Source: Symmachiella dynata
Lineage (GTDB): Bacteria > Planctomycetota > Planctomycetia > Planctomycetales > Planctomycetaceae
Direction: 5' to 3'
Assembly: GCF_007747995.1 (NCBI RefSeq)
Contig: NZ_CP036276.1
Span: forward strand, 7,368,001-7,432,000
DNA: 64,000 nt
Shown here: positions 9,334 through 44,463 of the stretch, piece after piece
How the letters are laid out: each line of letters starts with the position of its first letter
How positions within the stretch are numbered: the stretch's first letter is position 1
Notes under the pieces: model-generated
The model's database searches: none
Seen by the model: only the letters and a program-made list of their open reading frames with translations
Told to the model about the DNA's origin: nothing
Program-made: the position numbers and the translations under genes

Positions 9334-10650
9334 ATGAGTCAAGATACGACACGCCGTGATTTCATTCAAACGACGACGGCACTGGGAGCCGCTTGGTGGG
9401 TCAGTGGTGGCCCGAAAGCATTCGCCAAAGAACCTTCGCCGCTGGAACGCGTCCGTTATGCCTGCATTGGTGTCGGCGGTAAAGGTAAAAGCGACTCTGC
9501 CGATGCCGGTCAGCACGGCGACGTGGTTGCGATCTGCGACATCGACGAAAACAACCTCAACAAAGCCTCGAAAAAGTTCAAAAAGGCCGAGAAGTTCGTC
9601 GACTACCGCGAAATGCTCGACACGATGGGCGACAAAATCGATGCGGTCACGGTCAGCACGCCGGACCACTCCCACGCGCCGGCCAGCGCTATGGCGATGA
9701 AAATGGGCAAAGCCTGTTTCACGCAAAAACCGCTGACGCACAGCGTCTACGAAGCGCGTCGCTTGGCCGAAATCGCCAAGGAATCCGGCGTTCCCACAAT
9801 GATGGGCAACCAAGGAACGGCCAAATCCGGTCTGCGGAAAGCTGCTGCGATTATTAAAGAAGGTGGATTGGGCACGATCAAAGAAGTGCACATCTTCACC
9901 AACCGGCCTGTCTGGAAACAAGGGGGCGAACGCCCTGCGACAGCAACTGTGCCGAAGGAAGTCCACTGGGATCTCTGGCTCGGACCGGCACCGGAACGTC
10001 CCTATGCCCCTGGCTACCATCCCTTCGCTTGGCGGGGTTGGTGGGATTTCGGAACCGGAGCGTTGGGCGACATGGCTTGCCATACGGTCAACATGCCCTT
10101 CATGGGCTTGGACCTGCGGAATCCGACCTCCATCGTTGCGGAATCGTCCGGTCACAACCGCGACAGCTACCCGCAACAATCGAAGATCGTGTTCCAATTC
10201 CCGGCCAATGAAGCCCGTCCGGCGTTGCCTTTGATCTGGTACGACGGTGGCTACAAACCGGACGTTGCCTTGCTGTTGGGCGAGGACTTCAAGCACGATA
10301 GCGGTTCCATTATTGTCGGTGAAAACGGCACGCTGTATTCCTACGGCGATTACGGCGACAACTGGATGTTGCTGCCAACCGGCGAAGTCAGCGAACCGAA
10401 TGTCGAGTTCGAAGAATCGCCCGGTCACTTCACCGAATACCATCAGGCGATCACCGGCGAACGCAAAGAAGCCACGTCGAACTTCGTCAATTACGCCGGA
10501 CCGTTGACCGAGACGATTTTGCTCGGCAACTTGGCGGTTTGGGCCGATGGCAAGAAAATCGAATGGGATTCCAAAAACCTCAAAGCGACCAACGCTCCTG
10601 AAGTTGCTGGAATCATCAGGAACCATTACCGGGACGGCTACACGCTGTAA
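9334..10650 (+). CDS. Tat-exported Gfo/Idh/MocA-family oxidoreductase
   Basis: 438-aa predicted NAD(P)-dependent sugar or inositol dehydrogenase relative. A twin-arginine signal (TRRDFIQTTTALGAAWW) ends near residue 30, so it should be exported folded with its cofactor. The Rossmann domain shows GVGGKGK and CDIDENN; the sequence STPDHSHAPAS and TQKPLTHS correspond to the cofactor/substrate loop in which most relatives have EKP, so Glu is replaced by Gln while Lys is kept. The C-terminal half holds WDLWLGPAPERPY and the HxxxW-type region WWDFGTGALGDMACH. AAGGAA seven bases upstream supports the start, and a strong terminator follows. The true substrate is unknown. Confidence 0.9.
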   Translation: MSQDTTRRDFIQTTTALGAAWWVSGGPKAFAKEPSPLERVRYACIGVGGKGKSDSADAGQHGDVVAICDIDENNLNKASKKFKKAEKFVDYREMLDTMGDKIDAVTVSTPDHSHAPASAMAMKMGKACFTQKPLTHSVYEARRLAEIAKESGVPTMMGNQGTAKSGLRKAAAIIKEGGLGTIKEVHIFTNRPVWKQGGERPATATVPKEVHWDLWLGPAPERPYAPGYHPFAWRGWWDFGTGALGDMACHTVNMPFMGLDLRNPTSIVAESSGHNRDSYPQQSKIVFQFPANEARPALPLIWYDGGYKPDVALLLGEDFKHDSGSIIVGENGTLYSYGDYGDNWMLLPTGEVSEPNVEFEESPGHFTEYHQAITGERKEATSNFVNYAGPLTETILLGNLAVWADGKKIEWDSKNLKATNAPEVAGIIRNHYRDGYTL

Positions 10651-33629: not shown

Positions 33630-34015
33630 CTTTGTTGATCGGGGCAGGCTTTGCGCTGTCGATCAACTCTAGCAAAGGGCGGTTTCTGGGTGCGTTGGTG
33701 GTGCGGCCGCTTGCTTTGCGGCTGCTTGTGGAATCGCTGGGGCATTTTCTTGTCTCGTCTGATGAGTTGACCAGCGTTCTTATCCCAAATCATAACCGCT
33801 CACCGCGCGTATGGTCCGGGTTATTTTGCCTGGATAAACCTTAACGCTTCTGTCGATACTACCGAGGGACTTACGGCAGTAGTTGCCGGGGTCATTGCGC
33901 TAATGCTTGAACGACGGTTGGCGGTTGCTCAAACGTGCAGATTGAACGCACCGCGCTGGTCATGGCGATTCGAGATTGCAGGGTTGCCAACGAATTTATC
34001 AGGGTGGCGGGTGAT
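33630..34015. other. Intergenic region after tRNA-Arg
   Basis: About 385 bp up to the outer membrane efflux gene. Open frames here are extensions of the tRNA or lack start signals. No integrase or direct repeat of the tRNA 3' end is visible. Confidence 0.4.
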
Positions 34016-35701
34016 ATGAGCACGCAGCACAAGCCGAAAAAGATGCCGCGGAATCGTCACCCGGACCTTCCCTCGCTGACTACTGATAAAGTTCAGAAAT
34101 CGGGCAAGCGCGTCCACGTCGGCCGGACCTTGCGATTGGCGTTGCTCTGCCTGTGCTGCGGTTGTACTCCCTTGGGAGAATACATCAGCAATGGTTTTGA
34201 GGTGGGACCGGACTACAAGCGGCCGCCGGCACCGGTTGCCACGCATTGGATCGACGCCCATGATGAGCGCGTCAGCAGCGACGCCACAGACGATAGCGCC
34301 TGGTGGACAGTGTTCAACGATCCGGTCCTCAATGGGCTGATCCAGACCGCTTACGAGCAGAACTTGACCGTCCGCGAGGCGGGTTTTCGAGTGCTTCGTT
34401 CACGGGCTCGCCTGGGAATCGCGATCGGGGAATTCTTCCCGCAAACGCAGGTGATGGAGGGGAGCTATCAACGCGAGGGGGTCAGCCTGGGTGTCGCTAA
34501 CCGCTTCGCAACACCCGAGCGTTGGTTCAGCCAATGGAATTACGGTTTCGGGTTGGCGTGGGAACTCGATTTCTGGGGCCGTTTTCGCCGAGCGATCGAA
34601 GCCTCTGAAAGTGTGCTCGATGCCTCCGTGGAACATTACGATGCGGCAATCGTGACCTTAGTCGGCGATGTGGCAACCAGCTACGTGCAGATTCGCACGA
34701 TTCAAGAACAAATCGCCCTGGCTGAGCAATCATTGAAATTGCAAAAACAGAGTTTGGAAATCGCCACCGCCAAATACGAAGGGGGCGAGACGACCGAAGT
34801 TGACGTCTATCAGGGGCAAAGCGACGTCTCAAGCACCGAAGCATTAATCGAACAGTTGCAGATCGACCTGCGTCAAGCGACCAACCAGTTGTGTATACTG
34901 ATGGGCATGCCGCCGACCGATCTCTCTGAGATGCTGGGTGAAGGTCCCATCCCAACCGCGCCCGAACAAGTCGTGGTGGGAATCCCCGCCGACTTGATCC
35001 ATCGTCGCCCGGACGTCCGTCGTGCCGAGCGATTGACAGCGGCACAATCCGAAGAGATCGGGATTGCCGAAACCGACTTCTATCCGCAAATCAGCCTCAA
35101 CGGCACATTGGGCTGGTCCGCAGAGCATGTCGGGGATGCCTTGGACCGCGAGGCGTTTTTAGGATCGATCGGACCATCGTTCCAATGGGCCATCCTTAAT
35201 TATGGTCGCATCGCAAACAATGTCCGCGTCCAAGATGCCCGCTTCCAGGAATTGATTGCCAACTACCAAAATACGGTTCTCAATGCCGGTGTCGAAGTCG
35301 AGAATGGTCTGGTTTCGTTTCTCCGCTCAAAGAATCAGGCCGAAGATGCGGCTCGGGCCGTCAGAGCCGAAACCGCCGCCTTTCATGAAGCATTCGCACA
35401 GTACAAAGGTGGCTTAACGGATTATAACCGCGTCGTTGTAATCCAAGAGAGACTGGTCACTCGGCAACAATCGTTGGCCGATGCGCAAGGCGCAATCGCT
35501 CAGGGCCTGATCCAGGTTTATCGTTCGCTGGGTGGGGGATGGCAGATTCGATTGCAATCGGAAGCTGAGTTTATGATGCCGATTGAAACGGCCGTCCCGG
35601 CAGTCCCCCCTGCCCCAGCCCCCGTCGACGATGACGTAACAGGGGACGAACTCCCGTCACTTGAAGAACCTGGACTGGTTGTGATTCCGCAAAGTGAATA
35701 A
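34016..35701 (+). CDS. TolC/NodT-family outer membrane efflux protein
   Basis: 561-aa outer membrane channel of tripartite efflux pumps. A basic N-terminus leads into a hydrophobic segment ending LCLCCGCTPLGEY, a plausible lipoprotein signal as in NodT/OprM. The signature VGPDYKRPPAPV directly after it is typical of this group. Two outer-membrane-efflux-protein repeats follow, with AWELDFWGRFRRAIEAS and LIHRRPDVRRAERL. The C-terminal 50 residues are Pro/Ala/Asp-rich. ATG 34016 is chosen because the longer frame from 33935 has no signal peptide at its start. The matching pump genes are convergent downstream. Confidence 0.93.
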   Translation: MSTQHKPKKMPRNRHPDLPSLTTDKVQKSGKRVHVGRTLRLALLCLCCGCTPLGEYISNGFEVGPDYKRPPAPVATHWIDAHDERVSSDATDDSAWWTVFNDPVLNGLIQTAYEQNLTVREAGFRVLRSRARLGIAIGEFFPQTQVMEGSYQREGVSLGVANRFATPERWFSQWNYGFGLAWELDFWGRFRRAIEASESVLDASVEHYDAAIVTLVGDVATSYVQIRTIQEQIALAEQSLKLQKQSLEIATAKYEGGETTEVDVYQGQSDVSSTEALIEQLQIDLRQATNQLCILMGMPPTDLSEMLGEGPIPTAPEQVVVGIPADLIHRRPDVRRAERLTAAQSEEIGIAETDFYPQISLNGTLGWSAEHVGDALDREAFLGSIGPSFQWAILNYGRIANNVRVQDARFQELIANYQNTVLNAGVEVENGLVSFLRSKNQAEDAARAVRAETAAFHEAFAQYKGGLTDYNRVVVIQERLVTRQQSLADAQGAIAQGLIQVYRSLGGGWQIRLQSEAEFMMPIETAVPAVPPAPAPVDDDVTGDELPSLEEPGLVVIPQSE

Positions 35702-35818: not shown

Positions 35819-36223
35819 ATGGGACGTTGGATCCGGATATCCTCGGTGACCCTCAGCTTGATGCTGATCGCCACGGCGTGCGCTGACGCCGGTCGTTGGT
35901 TTCACTTCGACATCAGCCATGCGTCGCGCCGACCCACCTGCCAACCTTGCCAGAGCGCGATGGGCGGCTGTTGTGACGACTATTGCTCCAAGCCACTCCC
36001 CTGCATTTCGCCAAATTGCCGCGGTTGTGTCGACGACTATTGCGGCAAGCCGCTGCCTTGTATCTCCTGCACCAGACCGGGCTGCGTGGACGACTACTGC
36101 CCCAAACCTTGCCCACGATTCATACGTCCCTTGTGTCTGCCGTGGTATCAATGCGGTCCGGGGGAGCGTTGTTATGGCGGTCAAGGCATCGTGCCCGGTT
36201 GTGACGCGAACTCGCTTAAGTGA
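35819..36223 (+). CDS. Secreted cysteine-rich repeat protein
   Basis: 134-aa protein with a signal peptide (WIRISSVTLSLMLIATACADA). The mature part carries 18 cysteines, arranged around a tandem motif repeated three times: CCDDYCSKPLPCIS, CVDDYCGKPLPCIS and CVDDYCPKPCPRF. TAGGAG seven bases before the ATG supports translation. I do not recognise the family. The Cys and Asp-Asp-Tyr spacing suggests a disulfide-rich or metal-binding fold. It follows the TolC-like gene in the same direction and converges with the RND pump gene, whose stop is seven bases inside its 3' end. Confidence 0.82.
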   Translation: MGRWIRISSVTLSLMLIATACADAGRWFHFDISHASRRPTCQPCQSAMGGCCDDYCSKPLPCISPNCRGCVDDYCGKPLPCISCTRPGCVDDYCPKPCPRFIRPLCLPWYQCGPGERCYGGQGIVPGCDANSLK

Positions 36224-39200
36224 CTGAATCCGACGCGGGAGGCGGACTGTCCGGTTGAGCATCGTTCTCGGCGGATTTCGTGGGCGGCGGGGATTTTCGT
36301 TCGGCAAACCAACTGATGACGTAATAAAACACCGGCGTTAAAAAGACACCGAAGAACGTCACGCCGATCATGCCGCTGAAGACCGCCGTCCCCAGGGACC
36401 GCCGCATTTCCCACCCGGCACCCGTCGCGATCATCAAAGGCAGCACGCCGAACACGAAGGCGAACGACGTCATCAGAATCGGACGCAGTCGCAATTTGCA
36501 GGCTAGCAATGTCGCTTCACGTCGACCGAGTCCTTCGGCGCGTTGATCGACGGCGTACTCCACGATCAGAATCGCATTCTTAGCGGCCATCGCAATTAAG
36601 ACGATGAAACCGATCTGGGCAAAAATGTCGACCGGTTTGTGCGCAATCCACACTAATCCAGCCACCGAACTGAGCAAGCACATCGGCACGACAAGCACGA
36701 TCCCCACCGGCAACGACCAACTTTCATAAAGTGCCACCAGCACCAAAAACACCAACACCAGCGAGAGCGCAAAGATCAGGCTTCCAGTATTCGAAGCGGT
36801 GACGGATTGGTAGGCGATTCCCGTCCATGCATAGCCAAAGCCTCCCGGCAAATTGTCGGGCGCGCAAATTTGCTCCATCTTGGCCATCGCTTGGCCGGCG
36901 CTCTCACCAGGTCCGGGTCCGAAAATTAAGGAGGACGAATTGACGTCGTTATAGCGCATCACGAACGTCGGCCCATTGACATAGTGGACGTTGATCAATG
37001 CGCCCAACGGAACCATGTCCCCTTGCGAATTGCGGACCTGTAGCAGTTTGAGGTTCTCAGGATTCGTGCGAAACTTTCCCTCAGCTTCGACATTCACCTG
37101 CCAAATGCGGCCGAAGCGGTTGAATTGGTTGACGTACATCGAGCCCATGTTGGCGCTGAGCGTCTCATTCACATCTTGCAGTTTCACGCCCATTTGCATG
37201 ACGGCTTCGCGGTCGATGTCGACAGCCAATTGCGGGGAGTCGGCTTTAAACGTCGAGAGCATCATGCCGATTTCGGGCTGCGCATGGGCTTGTGAGACGA
37301 TCGATTCGGTGACATCTTGCAGCTCCTGCAAACCTTGTCCCGTCCGGTCTTCAATTTGAATCTGCAGCCCGCCCGCTCCGCCCAATCCCGGGACCGGCGG
37401 AGCGCCCAGAACCCTTGCCTGACAATTGATGACCTCTTTGTGATACCGCTCGTTCAAGGCCTTAATGATTCCCATGGCCTGCGTGTCGGGCGTGGTGCGA
37501 TCTTTGAACTCGTCGAGAATCACAAAAATGGTGCCCCAGTTCGAGGCATCGCACGCCAGGACGACGGAAAATCCCGAGACTGACATCGCTGATTCGACGC
37601 CAGGAGTGTCCAGCGCAATTTCTTCCAGCTTTTTCATCGCGGCTTCTGTCCGCTGCACCGAAGCCGAATCGGGCAGCACGACATTCACCAGCACGTATCC
37701 TTGATCCTGCGCCGGGATAAAGCCTTTCGGAGCGGTCTTCAGCCCATAACCGGTCAGCCCCAACAACCCCGCATAGATGATGAGCACGATGATGCACAGC
37801 CGCAACGACAATCCCACGAGACGCGTGTAGCCATTCGTGAATAGGTCAAAGACTTTATTAAACGCCCCAAAAATGACCGCCAAAATGCGATTCAACAATG
37901 GGCCGATCAACCAGCCGACCACGGCTCCGGGTAAAAACAGAGCGGCGGACACTGCCCAGCGCATGTATTCGTCGTCGGTCGGCGGCACGAAATCAGCAGC
38001 CCAGTTTTGCAGGAGATAGTAACTCAACACGCCGAACAAGACAGCAATGCCGGCGCGCGGCAAGGCTTCTCGTTCGACTGCGTTTTCCCCACCATGCGGT
38101 TTGATCCAAGCGACAGCGCGAGCCGGAGCCATCGTGAGCGCGTTGGTCGCCGAGAAGAGCGCAGCGGTAGCGATTGTCAACGCGAATTGCCGATAAAACT
38201 CGCCGACGAGTCCGGGGACAAAGGCGGTCGGAATGAAAACCGAGGCCAAGACCAAACTGATGCCGAACACTGGGCCGGTGATTTCAGCCATCGCCTTCAG
38301 CGTCGCTTCCCGCGCCGGCAGACCTTCTCCCATCCACCGTTCGATATTTTCGACGACGACAATCGAGTCGTCCACCACAATCCCCACGGCCAACACCAAC
38401 CCGAACAGCGAGAGATTGTTCAACGAGAAGCCAAGCATTTTCATGACCATGAAGGTGCCGATCAACGCGACAACAATATCGATCATCGGCAGCAGCATGG
38501 CCCGCCAATCTTGCAGAAACACCAAGATCACCACGATCACCAGCCCGGCAGCGATATAAATCGTGTTGATCACGTCATTGACCGAATCACGAATAAAGGG
38601 GGTCGTGTCATAGGCGATGACGTAATCGACGCCTTGTGGGAATTGCGCCTTCAATTCCTCCATCTTGGCTTTGACGGCATCGCCGGTGGCCAATGCGTTG
38701 GCTGTGGGAGTCGTGTAGACCCCCAAGGCGACCGACGGGTACTGCACCAGTTTTTCATCTTTCCGAACGGTCAGCGTGCAACTGAGGTCCGAATTTTGTG
38801 AACCCAATTCCACGCGGGCGACATCCCTCAAATAGACCAACTTTCCGCCGGTGCCGACTTTGACGACGATCTTTTCAAACTGCTCCACGGTGCTCAAGCG
38901 GCCCACAGTGTTGAGCACCAATTGAAATTCCTGCCCGGGCGGAACCGGTTCCTGGCCGATATTTCCCGCCGCAACATCGACGTTTTGTTGGCGGATTGCA
39001 TCGACCACATCGCCGGCAGTCATATCGAGTGCGGCAAGTTTTTGCGGTTCGAGCCAGGCCCGCATGCTATAGGAGCGTTCCCCCAAAAACTTCGCCATCC
39101 CGACACCCGGCACGCGGGAGATCGGGTCAAAGACATTGATCTGCGCGTAGTTGCTGAGATAGAGCGAATCGTAGCGGTCGTCCGGTGAAATCAGATTGAT

Positions 39201-39617
39201 CGCCAATAGCATATTGGCCGATTTCAACTTGACGCTCACCCCCTGCTCTTGCACGCTGACCGGCAGTTGCGCCAGCGCCAACTGGACGCGCGTCTGCACC
39301 AGCATCAGCGCCGTATTGACGTCGGTTCCGACCTCGAAGCTGACAATCAGGTTGTATTGTCCGTTGTTGGTGGAGGTGGAGGACATATAGATCATGCCTT
39401 CCACGCCGTTCACCTGCGCTTCGATCGGTTCGGCGACCGAATCGGCAACGGTCTGCGCATTTCCGCCGGGATAAACCGCTATCACCTGAATGGTGGGAGG
39501 CACAATCGGCGGGTACTGCGCCGTGGGCAATGTCTGATAGCAGACCCCACCGGCAATCACGATGATAATCGAGAGCACCCAGGCGAAGTTGGGACGATCA
39601 ATAAAAAAACGGGACAT
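36216..39617 (-). CDS. RND-family multidrug efflux transporter (HAE1/AcrB type)
   Basis: 1133-aa inner membrane proton/drug antiporter. The N-terminus MSRFFIDRPNFAWVLSIIIV, the porter-domain AQYPPIVPPTIQVIAVYPG, the proton-relay pair in VGIVVDDSIVVVENIE of TM4 and the C-terminal AAKNAILIVEYAVDQRA identify the HAE1 group. It is about 80 residues longer than AcrB; most of the surplus, about 62 residues, lies between TM6 and TM7 (near residues 500-630) and contains two extra hydrophobic stretches. The C-terminal tail is Pro/Ser-rich. The adaptor gene lies 165 bp upstream on the same strand. Confidence 0.95.
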   Translation of the reverse strand: MSRFFIDRPNFAWVLSIIIVIAGGVCYQTLPTAQYPPIVPPTIQVIAVYPGGNAQTVADSVAEPIEAQVNGVEGMIYMSSTSTNNGQYNLIVSFEVGTDVNTALMLVQTRVQLALAQLPVSVQEQGVSVKLKSANMLLAINLISPDDRYDSLYLSNYAQINVFDPISRVPGVGMAKFLGERSYSMRAWLEPQKLAALDMTAGDVVDAIRQQNVDVAAGNIGQEPVPPGQEFQLVLNTVGRLSTVEQFEKIVVKVGTGGKLVYLRDVARVELGSQNSDLSCTLTVRKDEKLVQYPSVALGVYTTPTANALATGDAVKAKMEELKAQFPQGVDYVIAYDTTPFIRDSVNDVINTIYIAAGLVIVVILVFLQDWRAMLLPMIDIVVALIGTFMVMKMLGFSLNNLSLFGLVLAVGIVVDDSIVVVENIERWMGEGLPAREATLKAMAEITGPVFGISLVLASVFIPTAFVPGLVGEFYRQFALTIATAALFSATNALTMAPARAVAWIKPHGGENAVEREALPRAGIAVLFGVLSYYLLQNWAADFVPPTDDEYMRWAVSAALFLPGAVVGWLIGPLLNRILAVIFGAFNKVFDLFTNGYTRLVGLSLRLCIIVLIIYAGLLGLTGYGLKTAPKGFIPAQDQGYVLVNVVLPDSASVQRTEAAMKKLEEIALDTPGVESAMSVSGFSVVLACDASNWGTIFVILDEFKDRTTPDTQAMGIIKALNERYHKEVINCQARVLGAPPVPGLGGAGGLQIQIEDRTGQGLQELQDVTESIVSQAHAQPEIGMMLSTFKADSPQLAVDIDREAVMQMGVKLQDVNETLSANMGSMYVNQFNRFGRIWQVNVEAEGKFRTNPENLKLLQVRNSQGDMVPLGALINVHYVNGPTFVMRYNDVNSSSLIFGPGPGESAGQAMAKMEQICAPDNLPGGFGYAWTGIAYQSVTASNTGSLIFALSLVLVFLVLVALYESWSLPVGIVLVVPMCLLSSVAGLVWIAHKPVDIFAQIGFIVLIAMAAKNAILIVEYAVDQRAEGLGRREATLLACKLRLRPILMTSFAFVFGVLPLMIATGAGWEMRRSLGTAVFSGMIGVTFFGVFLTPVFYYVISWFAERKSPPPTKSAENDAQPDSPPPASDSVT

Positions 39618-39782: not shown

Positions 39783-41048
39783 TTATTTGTCGCTCGACTG
39801 TGTCTTCGCCGCTTGGGGAACCGATTGGGGAGTGCGTAAGAGGGTCAACATATCGACGGTTTGTGGATCCACTTTGATACCCGGCTTGGCGCGGAGCAAA
39901 CCTTCGACAATGACTTGATCCGTGGGTTTGAGAACCTCCACTTGCTTCTGGACGACTTGACCATCAGGACCAGTATCGGAGACGGTCCGATAAGGTTTGA
40001 TCGCCCGCAATCCGTTGTGCATTTGCCCAACATCAACAATGCGGTATTCCACTTCCTGCTTTTCATTCACCACGAGCACGTAGCGTTGCCCCTGATTCGT
40101 GCCGATGGCCGCATCGGTCACAAGCAACGCTTCATGAGGCGGCGACGTAGGAATGCGGATCCGTGTGAACAACCCGGAAACGAGTCGCTCATCCTCATTC
40201 TTAAAAACGGCGCGTAACTGAATCGATCCGGTACTGGCGTCGAGTTGATTGCCGATAAAATCGACGAAGCCATCGAGTGAAAATTCGGTATCTGCCCCGA
40301 CGGCCATCTGCACGGGAATTTTTCCGGAGCGGGCTGATTTCAGTTTGCCATCGGTAACCAACTGCTCGTAGCGTTCCGCCGTGTTTTGATCGACGTTGAA
40401 ATAGGCCCAAATCGGCTTGACCGAAACCACGTTGACCAACGTAGTGACGTTTTCCGTGACCAGATTCCCCTCGTCAACCATGTGCCGCCCCAACCGCCCA
40501 TCAATGGGAGAGGTGACCTTGCACCAATCAAAATAGAGTTGTGCCAAGGCAAGATTGGCTTTGGATTTGTCGACCGACGCTTGCGATTCATCACGAGCGC
40601 CGAGCCGGCGGGTCAGTTCCTGTTCGCTGATCGCCCCTTTATTTTTCTTTTGGACGGACAGACCAATGTCGTATTCCGCCTGACTTTCAATCAGGCTGGC
40701 CTTGGAAAACTCTAGGCTGGCTTTCGCTTGTGCGAGCTGTGCCGCATAGGTCCGGTCGTCGATCTCAAACAGGACGTCCCCCTTTTTAACGACGTCGCCA
40801 TCCTTGAAATTGATCTTTGTCAGATAACCGGAAACGCGGGGATTGATGTCGACCGACTGCACGGCTGCCGTGCGCGCGGTGAATATCTCGTAGTCGGTCA
40901 CTTGTCGCTCAAGTGGCGAGCTCACCCGCACCACAGGCGGCGCTGCAGGTTTAACCTCAGGCTTTGTTGGAGAACATCCACCCAGCGCAAGAAAAAGAGA
41001 CAGGGGTACATGCAAGCGTAGTTGACGACCGGTCCCCAGTAGTCTCAT
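39783..41048 (-). CDS. RND efflux adaptor (periplasmic membrane-fusion protein)
   Basis: 421-aa lipoprotein linking the inner membrane pump to the outer membrane channel. The signal HVPLSLFLALGGCSPTKP contains the lipobox LGGC. The barrel-sandwich halves read RVSGYLTKINFKDGDVVKKG and VTSPIDGRLGRHMVDEGNLV, separated by a coiled-coil hairpin (AQAKASLEFSKASLIESQAEYD abbreviated to its ends). ATG 41048, preceded by AAGG, gives a signal peptide at the start; the frame stays open to 41420 without one. First gene of the pump pair. Confidence 0.94.
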   Translation of the reverse strand: MRLLGTGRQLRLHVPLSLFLALGGCSPTKPEVKPAAPPVVRVSSPLERQVTDYEIFTARTAAVQSVDINPRVSGYLTKINFKDGDVVKKGDVLFEIDDRTYAAQLAQAKASLEFSKASLIESQAEYDIGLSVQKKNKGAISEQELTRRLGARDESQASVDKSKANLALAQLYFDWCKVTSPIDGRLGRHMVDEGNLVTENVTTLVNVVSVKPIWAYFNVDQNTAERYEQLVTDGKLKSARSGKIPVQMAVGADTEFSLDGFVDFIGNQLDASTGSIQLRAVFKNEDERLVSGLFTRIRIPTSPPHEALLVTDAAIGTNQGQRYVLVVNEKQEVEYRIVDVGQMHNGLRAIKPYRTVSDTGPDGQVVQKQVEVLKPTDQVIVEGLLRAKPGIKVDPQTVDMLTLLRTPQSVPQAAKTQSSDK

Positions 41049-41547
41049 CGCATCGCCTTTTCGAGCCAAAAAGAATCCAGACGTTTCGCAGTTTGAGATC
41101 ACCCCACAATTGGTTGGTGATAGTAAAAGACGTTGTAACAAACTTATTCTACTCACGCGACAATTGCTGCTGAGATTTTTGTGAATAAACCCTGGAACAG
41201 ACGACGGGTTGCCACTTTCGATAGTTGTAGGCTGCGAATGCGAGCATGCCGCTGCAGCAGAGCGCCCGAATAAGCTTAGTATTCCTTCTATTTTGACTCG
41301 CGGACACATGATGCTTTCAGGTTGTCGCGTTGAACCAAGTCTGTCGACCAGACTCGTTTTATGTACGAGCTTTGTTCGTTGAAATAGGCAGAACGACTTA
41401 GTGTACAAACCCATTGACACACATATCCCGCCAGCAATTTGGTTTTGACACTCCCGCAGGACTTCTCTATATTTGCTTGCAGAAGCAGTTTCGTTTTCCG
41501 TCCGGGAAACGGTTGGAAAAATGAAAATACGTGAGGATTAGGTTTCG
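41049..41547. other. Intergenic region upstream of the efflux adaptor
   Basis: About 500 bp between divergent genes. I see no regulator gene, operator palindrome or RNA. The open frames on the minus strand are upstream extensions of the adaptor frame or unconvincing. Confidence 0.4.
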
Positions 41548-41922: not shown

Positions 41923-42219
41923 GCAGCGCGCTTACAACACGCACAACGTTGATGTCTTCTTGCGCGCCAACCGACTCGACAATACAGCCTCCAGTGATTC
42001 GCTCAGCACGGCAAAAATTGTGTTGTAATCCCAGCAAAAATTGCACCTGCGCTTCGCGGCTTGCAATATGAGCCAAACTCATCAGACGCTAACATCAACC
42101 CTGGACCGTCACCATTTCGTCCCGACCCGTGGACGAAATTCGGCTGCCTGGAATGGGTTCTTGATAGGCTTATCGATGATTGCCGCATTCTTCACCGAGA
42201 TTCTTGGAACATACGACTC

Positions 42220-44463
42220 ATGACGGAACAACTCTCTAAAAAATCCGGAACGCTTGTGAACGACCTCACCGCGAGTGTGGTCGTGTTTATCGTCGCCTTA
42301 CCATTGTGCCTGGGAATCGCGCTGGCCTCCGAGGCTCCGCTTTTTTCCGGCGTTCTCTCCGGAATCATCGGCGGAATCGTCGTTGGTTTTCTGAGTCGCT
42401 CGCATACCAGCGTCAGCGGTCCCGCAGCCGGCCTGACGGCAATTGTCGCAGCCCAAATCGCAGTGCTGGGATCCTTCGAAGCATTCCTGTTGGCTGTGAT
42501 GATTGCCGGAGCGATGCAAGTTGCGGCCGGTCTGGCGCGCGCTGGCTCCATTGCCATGTTTGTACCAAACAGCGTGATTAAAGGCCTGCTCACAGCCATC
42601 GGCATCATCTTGATCCTCAAACAGTTTCCACACGTCTTGGGCCACGACGATGATGTCGAAGGAGAAATGTCCTTCACACAACCGGACCAAGAGAATACGT
42701 TTACCGAGCTGTTGTCGGTGTTCCAAGGCCAGTGGCATCTTGGTGCGGCATCGATCGGGATACTCTCCGTCGCCATATTGGTTGCCTGGAGCCGGATCAA
42801 ATTCCTCAAAAACTCGCCCGTGCCGGCCCCGTTGATCGTCGTGCTGGTCGGTCTTGGACTCGGACAACTGTTCCGGGGTTGGGGAGCAGGTTGGCTGATT
42901 GGCAGTACGCATCTGGTACAGGTCCCCGTGGCTGAAAGCTTGAGCGAATTTAGTAGCTTCCTGACACATCCAGATTTCTCTGCCTGGTCAAATCCGCAGA
43001 TCTATATCGCGGCGGTGACTATCGCGATCGTCGCCTCGCTGGAAACCGTCCTCAATCTCGAAGCCACCGATCGTCTCGATCCCCAACAGAGACAATCCCC
43101 GCCCAGTCGAGAATTGATCGCCCAAGGTGTGGGCAATATGACGACCGGCTTGATCGGGGGAATTCCCATGACCTCGGTCATCGTCCGCAGCTCGGTGAAT
43201 ATCAACTCCGGTGGAAAAACCAAACTCTCGGCGATTATCCACGGCTGTCTGCTGCTGGCTAGTGTGAGTCTGGCGCCTCAGGTCTTGAACCAAATTCCAC
43301 TGTCTTGCCTGGCGGCCATCCTACTCGTGACAGGTTTCAAATTGGCAAGCCCGGAGCTATTCCGGCAAATGTACAAGGAAGGCAAATATCAGTTCACGCC
43401 GTTTTTAATTACAGTGCTGGCCATCGTATTCACAGACTTGCTCGTGGGAATTCTCATCGGCTTAGGAGTCAGCCTGAGTTTCATCCTCTACAGCAACGTC
43501 AAACGTCCCTTGCGCCGCGTTGTTGAAAATCATGTCGGCGGCGAGGTGCTGCGGATTGAGCTCTCAAATCAAGTCAGTTTCTTAAACCGGGCCTCACTGG
43601 TTCAGGCGCTCGACGGAATTCCGCAAGGAGGCAGCGTACTGATCGATGCCCGCAATTCGAGTTACATCGATCCGGATGTATTGGGATTGCTGCACGATTT
43701 TAAAAATACGTCCGCACCTGCGCGAGGGATCAGTGTCAGCCTGTTAGGATTTCGGAATCGATACTTTCTCGAGGATGAGATTCAATACATTGACTACTCC
43801 ACGCACGAACTCCAGGAACGCCTGACCGCCGATCAGGTCTTGGAAATGCTGATTGCCGGGAACGAGCGGTTCCGGTCCGGAAACACCTTAACGCGGCATA
43901 CGATTCGCCAGATCAATGCAACGGCGACCGCTCAGCACCCATTGGCGGTCGTCGTGAGTTGCATGGATTCTCGTGCACCGGTGGAGATGATTTTCGACGT
44001 TGGCGTGGGTGATGTGTTTGTCGTGCGCGTGGCCGGCAACGTCATCAGCCCCGAAGTCTTGGCGAGCATTGAATACGGGTGTGTCATCGCGCGTGCTCCG
44101 TTGGTGTTAGTGATGGGCCACACCAACTGCGGCGCGGTTACTGCGACGGTGGATGCCATCTGCGGCCTCTCATTCAATGACGCTGGCTGTAGTCATCTCA
44201 AGTATATTGTCGACGAGGTATCGCCTTCCATCGACGGCCTGTCCCACTTCAATGCCGAACAAGCGTCCGAAGAAGACAAGATCGCGTTCGTCAATCAAGT
44301 CAGTGAGCGGAATGTGCAACACTCGGTAGATGCGATCTTACAGCGTAGTCCGGCCATCAGCGAACAAGTCCGCAACGGTCAGGCAGCAGTGGTCGGTGCA
44401 ATGTACGATGTCAACACCGGCCAACTGCACTGCCAAGACGTTAACGAAACGGCCAAGGCATAA
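42220..44463 (+). CDS. SulP anion transporter fused to beta-carbonic anhydrase
   Basis: 747-aa inner membrane protein. Residues 1-420 are the SulP/SLC26 transporter (LTASVVVFIVALPLCLGIALA, SGPAAGLTAIVAAQIA, GGIPMTSVIVRSSVNINSG) with ten or more membrane helices. Residues 440-550 are a STAS-like domain (VSFLNRASLVQALDGIP, SVLIDARNSSYIDPDV). The C-terminal part is a beta-carbonic anhydrase whose zinc ligands Cys581, His634 and Cys637 and the Asp583-Arg585 dyad are all present (SCMDSRAPVEM, GHTNCGAV). The fusion suggests bicarbonate transport coupled to CO2 hydration. ATG 42220 avoids a non-membrane N-terminal extension. Confidence 0.93.
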   Translation: MTEQLSKKSGTLVNDLTASVVVFIVALPLCLGIALASEAPLFSGVLSGIIGGIVVGFLSRSHTSVSGPAAGLTAIVAAQIAVLGSFEAFLLAVMIAGAMQVAAGLARAGSIAMFVPNSVIKGLLTAIGIILILKQFPHVLGHDDDVEGEMSFTQPDQENTFTELLSVFQGQWHLGAASIGILSVAILVAWSRIKFLKNSPVPAPLIVVLVGLGLGQLFRGWGAGWLIGSTHLVQVPVAESLSEFSSFLTHPDFSAWSNPQIYIAAVTIAIVASLETVLNLEATDRLDPQQRQSPPSRELIAQGVGNMTTGLIGGIPMTSVIVRSSVNINSGGKTKLSAIIHGCLLLASVSLAPQVLNQIPLSCLAAILLVTGFKLASPELFRQMYKEGKYQFTPFLITVLAIVFTDLLVGILIGLGVSLSFILYSNVKRPLRRVVENHVGGEVLRIELSNQVSFLNRASLVQALDGIPQGGSVLIDARNSSYIDPDVLGLLHDFKNTSAPARGISVSLLGFRNRYFLEDEIQYIDYSTHELQERLTADQVLEMLIAGNERFRSGNTLTRHTIRQINATATAQHPLAVVVSCMDSRAPVEMIFDVGVGDVFVVRVAGNVISPEVLASIEYGCVIARAPLVLVMGHTNCGAVTATVDAICGLSFNDAGCSHLKYIVDEVSPSIDGLSHFNAEQASEEDKIAFVNQVSERNVQHSVDAILQRSPAISEQVRNGQAAVVGAMYDVNTGQLHCQDVNETAKA

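Follow-up and report, generated by a model that had tools for sequence, protein, structure and literature searches.

A small cysteine-rich gene of Symmachiella dynata, lying within a stretch of 64,000 nucleotides (contig NZ_CP036276.1, positions 7,368,001 to 7,432,000; hereafter the window), encodes an exported protein with three tandem repeats. Among its relatives the gene is linked not to one pump but to the gene of an outer-membrane factor (OMF), the trimer that forms the exit duct in tripartite exporters. On balance, we favor the reading that the product is a dedicated periplasmic accessory subunit of the planctomycete OMF, docking near the equatorial belt of the channel. The association with the OMF is well evidenced, and from it we infer contact between the two proteins.

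Results

The open reading frame at 35819-36223 on the plus strand encodes 134 amino acids, and its translation agrees with the earlier description. Residues 1-24 (35819..35890, +) have the appearance of a Sec signal peptide cleaved between ADA and G, a site picked both by eye and by a simple rule in a script. The signal region includes IATAC; by eye, a canonical lipobox is absent, and the relative in genome G002 has no Cys at that place. The mature part comprises 110 residues with 18 Cys, as the first-pass annotation had counted (18 Cys in about 110 mature residues). Translation and a repeat position weight matrix (PWM) place three repeats on the plus strand: CCDDYCSKPLPC at 35969..36004, CVDDYCGKPLPC at 36026..36061, and CVDDYCPKPCPR at 36083..36118. 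The three copies of CVDDYCxKPLPC described earlier are thus present, although this consensus suits CCDDYCSKPLPC and CVDDYCGKPLPC better than CVDDYCPKPCPR. The C-terminal WYQC motif (36143..36154, +) recurs as WYxC in alignments of many relatives.

The open reading frame is a real, conserved gene. Homologues exist; within the genus, two further genomes carry copies with 91% and 60% identity to the window protein. The gene is under purifying selection, with a dN/dS of 0.133 against G001 (24.5 synonymous and 13.5 nonsynonymous differences); the ratio against G002 was not used because dS was saturated (3.86). The long antisense frame over the gene is interrupted by one stop in G001 and three in G002, and is therefore not conserved.

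The first-pass annotation could not match the motif to a family, and the same result was obtained with wider searches. The single protein had no significant match in Pfam, NCBIfam, or the PDB, and at E<=1 none of 18 diverse members was matched by a Pfam or NCBIfam model. A PDB search with an 18-row profile reached a best E of 0.41, the family of the window protein was not matched in a viral collection, and, judged by titles and the openings of abstracts, none of the open-licence PubMed Central papers listed describes the Cys-repeat family. AlphaFold, given 18 sequences, returned a mean pLDDT of 47.7 and no usable fold. As judged by these comparisons, the family appears to be divergent and uncatalogued.

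With a nine-member profile, relatives were found in 18 of 170 genomes and 11 of 58 genera of the family to which the window belongs (own genome included; 25 candidates scored per genome). In the class sample, matches occurred in 58 of 397 genomes (own genome included; 10 candidates scored per genome) and 45 of 185 genera; the matched genomes are spread over 14 families by family code, and one of them, G389, is a chance match. A scan of an 84,980-species collection matched 65 stretches, 19 of which encode relatives. Eighteen of these carry planctomycete record titles, and the open frame of the nineteenth (L053, titled 'bacterium') is shared with L054, which is recorded as Planctomycetota. In the samples searched, relatives were thus seen only in Planctomycetota, with Bythopirellula polymerisocia and Lacipirellula limnantheis among the cultured members. 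A phylum sample searched with profile A3 gave 3 of 392 genomes, all in the class of the window, which is a weak negative because only 10 candidates were scored per genome and the share of the sample belonging to that class was not shown.

Profile searches miss divergent members. When 52 OMFs lacking an adjoining profile match were inspected by reading, a divergent or reduced Cys gene lay downstream in 4 of one set of 12 (G063, G326, G288, and G417) and in 5 of another set of 40 (L183, L187, L188, L212, and L216). Single-repeat or strongly reduced relatives occur directly downstream of OMFs at L049, L133, L188, L212, and L216, the last three recognized by eye. We also note that L034 (G013:C163) and L091 (G297:C2) have identical Cys frames and an OMF branch length of 0, while their genomes are assigned to separate families; L034 lies on a 3.6-kb contig of G013 that is probably contamination.

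The conserved partner in the window is an OMF of the NodT/OprM type at 33935..35701 on the plus strand, which matches TIGR01845 with 327.1 bits (cut-off 210.05) as well as PF02321, and ends upstream of the Cys gene. Its listed GTG start is probably too early, with a hydrophobic signal segment further in. Of 63 loci outside the window, 58 have an OMF gene in the same orientation no more than 1 kb upstream; L034 and L091 share one sequence, and the match at L036 and L120 is to a fragment of an OMF only. Of the five other loci, L047, L123, and L127 are genuine members with no OMF near them in the DNA examined; L097 is at a contig end, its RND gene convergent like that of the window; and L132 is the chance match. 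Among named loci, linkage was seen in 18 of 19, a set that overlaps the 63 in that several genomes are the same. At L063 (JAAYCB010000504.1), the Cys gene at 10001 immediately follows an MFP-RND pair; no OMF was found within the 13.4 kb, and it has perhaps been relocated. The earlier observation that the gene is in line with the outer membrane efflux gene therefore extends well beyond the window. The first-pass annotation had named a lack of homologues, or neighbors scattered at random, as what would speak against its reading; homologues exist, and their upstream neighbor is an OMF gene in 58 of 63 loci.

The gene accompanies only some OMFs. Among 21 OMFs (E<=1e-30) in 14 chosen genomes, nine of which were picked because the Cys gene is present, nine OMFs carry the gene and 12 do not, with exactly one gene-bearing OMF in each of nine genomes. 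A close OMF (E<=1e-110) was found in 53 of the 58 Cys-matched genomes versus 142 of 397 overall, with three candidates scored per genome. An OMF tree built with a quick method contains 118 rows, 66 with the gene and 52 without, the latter label being imperfect since the downstream DNA is sometimes short (200 nt at L196, for example). The gene was scored as present by reading for L169, L172, L173, L181, L183, L187, L188, L212, and L216. The tree excludes L036 (too short), L047, L097, L120, L123, L127, and L132 (no OMF row), L143, L152, and L154 (low score), and the duplicates L135-L142. On this tree, the gene label requires 15 changes versus 38.7 in shuffles, and none of 500 shuffles was as low. 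The label is clustered, yet the gene has been gained or lost many times. Because it is absent from 52 of 118 related OMFs, it is not essential to the OMF.

It could be argued from this absence, and from the three solo copies, that the gene is a neighbor with no functional link to the OMF, retained by chance or transcriptional convenience. We consider this extremely unlikely given the linkage in 58 of 63 loci, the 14 family codes among matched genomes, and the clustering on the OMF tree. The separate idea that the OMF lacks a lipid anchor that its partner replaces was not supported: among OMFs with the gene, a simple pattern finds a lipobox in 39 of 59, and among those lacking it in 38 of 48; by eye, the majority of OMFs that fail the pattern also look lipobox-like.

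The transporter genes near the Cys gene are far less constant. In the window, a convergent RND permease (36216..39617, -) exceeds the cut-off of TIGR00915 (1066.8 versus 940.35 bits), the model of the HAE1 or multidrug type, and stays below that of the metal-type model TIGR00914 (289.7 versus 701.45 bits). Positions 36216-36223 are common to this frame and the Cys gene, which bears out the eight-base overlap reported earlier. The periplasmic adaptor (MFP) of the pump is encoded at 39783..41420 on the minus strand (TIGR01730, 197.2 bits; cut-off 94.9); here as well, translation probably begins later than the listed GTG, and a hydrophobic signal segment lies further in. Further along the window, 42061-44463 encodes a SulP-type transporter with a fused carbonic anhydrase domain, both matching below curated cut-offs. 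The window was compared with four other loci examined with Pfam, which revealed an ABC-2 exporter with a HlyD adaptor at L107, HlyD-type adaptors at L102 and L108, and a divergent RND at L099. When the window RND was used as a tblastn query at L048, L110, L111, L112, and L115, no pump was matched. Since the neighboring transporters differ between loci, the constant partner is the channel and not a metal pump.

These data bear on the earlier suggestion that the protein binds metals handled by the pump. CusF serves the Cus system, and a comparable periplasmic metal-binding chaperone or thiol buffer would accord with the 18 Cys, the conserved Asp pairs, and the neighborhood of efflux genes; CusF-type chaperones are likewise small exported proteins encoded beside an efflux system. 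In contrast to them, the Cys protein has no Pfam match and its neighboring pump is not of the metal type (TIGR00914 below cut-off). Such variety among the transporters speaks against a function bound to a single substrate, for instance a metal. Within the repeats, moreover, the Cys after Tyr is kept in only 134 of 171 copies versus 171 for the aromatic position (Y/F/H) and 169 for K/R, and members L130 and L131 have just six and eight Cys. A metal or redox partner is thus not favored, and we rate it as quite unlikely.

The three-repeat design is a general property of the family. With a PWM threshold set at the 99th percentile of shuffled proteins, exactly three repeats were scored in 53 of 60 proteins, two in five, one in two (L049 and L133), and four in none; a third copy is listed below threshold in four of the five two-repeat proteins. 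The chance match L132 was omitted from this scoring, as were L047, L095, and L097, for which no start codon was picked. Neighboring repeats are 19 or 20 residues apart in 110 of 111 pairs; when each of the 60 proteins was shuffled once, no repeat reached the threshold used. Over the 171 extracted repeats, the first Asp/Asn is kept in 158 and the second Pro in 154, with the K/R noted above standing three places after the aromatic residue; all of these figures lean upward, as the extracting PWM was trained on copies with Tyr, Cys, and Lys.

The cysteines themselves are more variable. Normal-length proteins contain up to 25, whereas L130 and L131 retain the repeat spacing with six and eight. An even Cys parity was considered and rejected, as the mature parts of 57 proteins (cleavage by the simple rule) have even counts in 21 cases and odd counts in 36. 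These counts give no support to a knot formed by intramolecular disulfides alone. The disulfide-knit envelope protein proposed in the first-pass annotation is possible, but the Cys numbers show no bias toward even values.

A related possibility is that the product is a disulfide-linked envelope protein, rich in Cys and Pro, that ties the OMF to the proteinaceous planctomycete wall, with the repeats binding the wall instead of the OMF. Pfam contains a YTV model, and none of the 18 members matches that or any other Pfam model. Cys-rich YTV-domain proteins are reported from planctomycete cell-wall preparations (PMC8567305), and as Cys-rich exported envelope proteins of planctomycetes they resemble the product described here. 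The high Cys content and the richness of the repeats in Pro and Cys would also suit such an anchor. The Cys protein nonetheless differs from YTV proteins in its DDYCxKPxP repeat, its mature length of about 110 residues, and its linkage to an OMF gene, and the absence of a bias to even Cys numbers and the Cys-poor members L130 and L131 weigh against a disulfide-linked anchor. We view attachment to the wall as unlikely, if still deserving of some weight.

The N-terminal arm of the window OMF (GPDYKRPPAPV, 34205..34237, +) is weakly repeat-like in PWM scans and arm comparisons. In 84 of 113 OMFs, no segment matched the PWM better than the arm, which is thus the most repeat-like segment of most OMFs, though its raw scores are low, with a negative median. 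Column-shuffled PWMs equaled this result in 28 of 2000 trials, or 7 of 1000 with Cys scores zeroed; an HMM scan of the OMFs gave no support for arm mimicry. After leaving out 5 of 118 OMFs without a readable arm, a K/R in the arm was seen in 59 of 62 OMFs with the gene versus 21 of 51 without, and a true co-variation was rejected because it is absent in phylogenetically independent pairs (median p 0.69). A disulfide between the Cys protein and an arm Cys was not supported either, as arm Cys is not enriched, being present in 10 of 59 OMFs with the gene and 17 of 48 without. One could imagine a single chain whose three modules imitate the arm (GP[DN]YxKPxAP), one laid on each protomer to form a three-fold clamp, with one fused module per protomer in another lineage; we regard this arrangement as doubtful.

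An element similar to the repeat is fused to the OMF itself in one lineage. HMM scans for arm resemblance ranked the C-terminal tails of L198, L201, and L202, all of one clade, first. The top-scoring tail reached 4.5 under a longer HMM and 5.1 under a shorter one, compared with 3.9 and -1.0, respectively, for the top-scoring shuffle. In a PWM scan of 118 OMFs, two tails were highest at 19.4 and 15.8, against a maximum of 12.2 for 2360 shuffled OMFs; one of the four tail variants scored just 6.2, and an unrelated open frame in the window reached 13.8. The tail, CCxPxP...CD[DT][YF]xGKxPP...C with four conserved Cys, is present in 18 of 19 OMFs found by a search of 60 genomes of one family (code f15), 19 of which gave a match, and the nineteenth OMF, which is the most distant, lacks it. 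The 18 tailed OMFs are related and count as one evolutionary event. No separate Cys gene was found in the 141-1497 nt downstream of tailed OMFs, and none of the 58 class genomes matched by the Cys profile belongs to this family. L216, its sister among the OMFs on the tree (quick method, support 98), is accompanied by a free Cys gene with one repeat. The tail holds one CDDY element and a partial one, without Cys after Tyr, and convergence is therefore possible. A different four-Cys tail (HCFCHGCGMPC), without the DDY motif, is found at the OMF C-terminus of L213 (G430:C14).

The fused tail begins just past GGGW or GSGW. In OprM, the last helix closes with LGGGW at the equatorial 'buoy', where the folded part of the chain ends (PMC4790312); therefore, the tail should hang at the equatorial belt. 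In these f15 OMFs, which are of the NodT/OprM type, the CDDYxGK element is part of the channel at roughly one per protomer, in contrast to the window, where three elements are encoded by a separate gene. The fusion is at most suggestive of a physical complex between the Cys protein and the OMF.

Sec-secreted Cys-rich peptides that leave through TolC offer a precedent for regarding the protein as cargo, a disulfide-rich Sec-secreted peptide exported via the adjacent OMF. A signal peptide, small size, and high Cys content would agree with this. However, lipobox-like signal peptides occur in five relatives from one OMF clade (L045, L050, L051, L172, and L173; partly recognized by eye), which is unexpected for a released product, as is a repeat-like element fused to the channel. 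We think an export substrate highly improbable.

Discussion

We propose that the Cys protein is exported by the Sec pathway, in one lineage as a predicted lipoprotein. Its three modules of 19-20 residues, with the core D-D-Y-C-x-K-P-x-P, would then attach to the outside of the OMF, close to its equatorial belt. The conserved number of repeats matches a trimeric partner; possibly, and in our estimation probably, one module would lie on each protomer. Once docked, the protein may brace, orient, or help assemble the channel, whichever inner-membrane transporter is being served.

The closest parallel to this proposed role is YbjP, the DUF3828 lipoprotein associated with Escherichia coli TolC. YbjP bridges TolC protomers at the equatorial domain in a 3:3 complex (PMC13095208), has a linker that follows the N-terminal helix of TolC, and is dispensable for efflux under standard conditions (PMC13082787; commentary PMC13016604). 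It was reported only in 2025-2026 and is, to its finders' knowledge, the first partner on the lateral surface of TolC (PMC13082787). YbjP and the Cys protein would both be small exported OMF partners that occur with only some related OMFs, and the equatorial location described for YbjP (PMC13082787, PMC13095208) is the one that we tentatively assign to the Cys protein.

The two systems also differ in several respects. The Cys protein has no DUF3828 or other Pfam match (0/18 at E<=1) and consists of tandem Cys/Pro repeats rather than a globular domain. Its gene adjoins that of the OMF, whereas ybjP is not known to adjoin tolC. The planctomycete OMFs have their own lipobox-like N-terminus, in contrast to the YbjP system, and while YbjP has a lipoprotein signal, the window protein lacks a canonical lipobox Cys and only five relatives appear lipoprotein-like. 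Membership in either YbjP/DUF3828 or the YTV wall proteins was tried and set aside, as none of the 18 members has the corresponding Pfam domain. The Cys protein may thus be comparable to YbjP in its proposed role, but not in sequence.

If the proposed role is correct, a function-linked name could be given to a Cys-rich family whose tested members are unmatched in Pfam and NCBIfam. The three-repeat form fitting a trimer, together with the fused form, would offer a case open to testing in bacteria whose envelope is unusual. An unrelated and widespread family in another phylum would also suggest that accessory subunits of export channels arise repeatedly.
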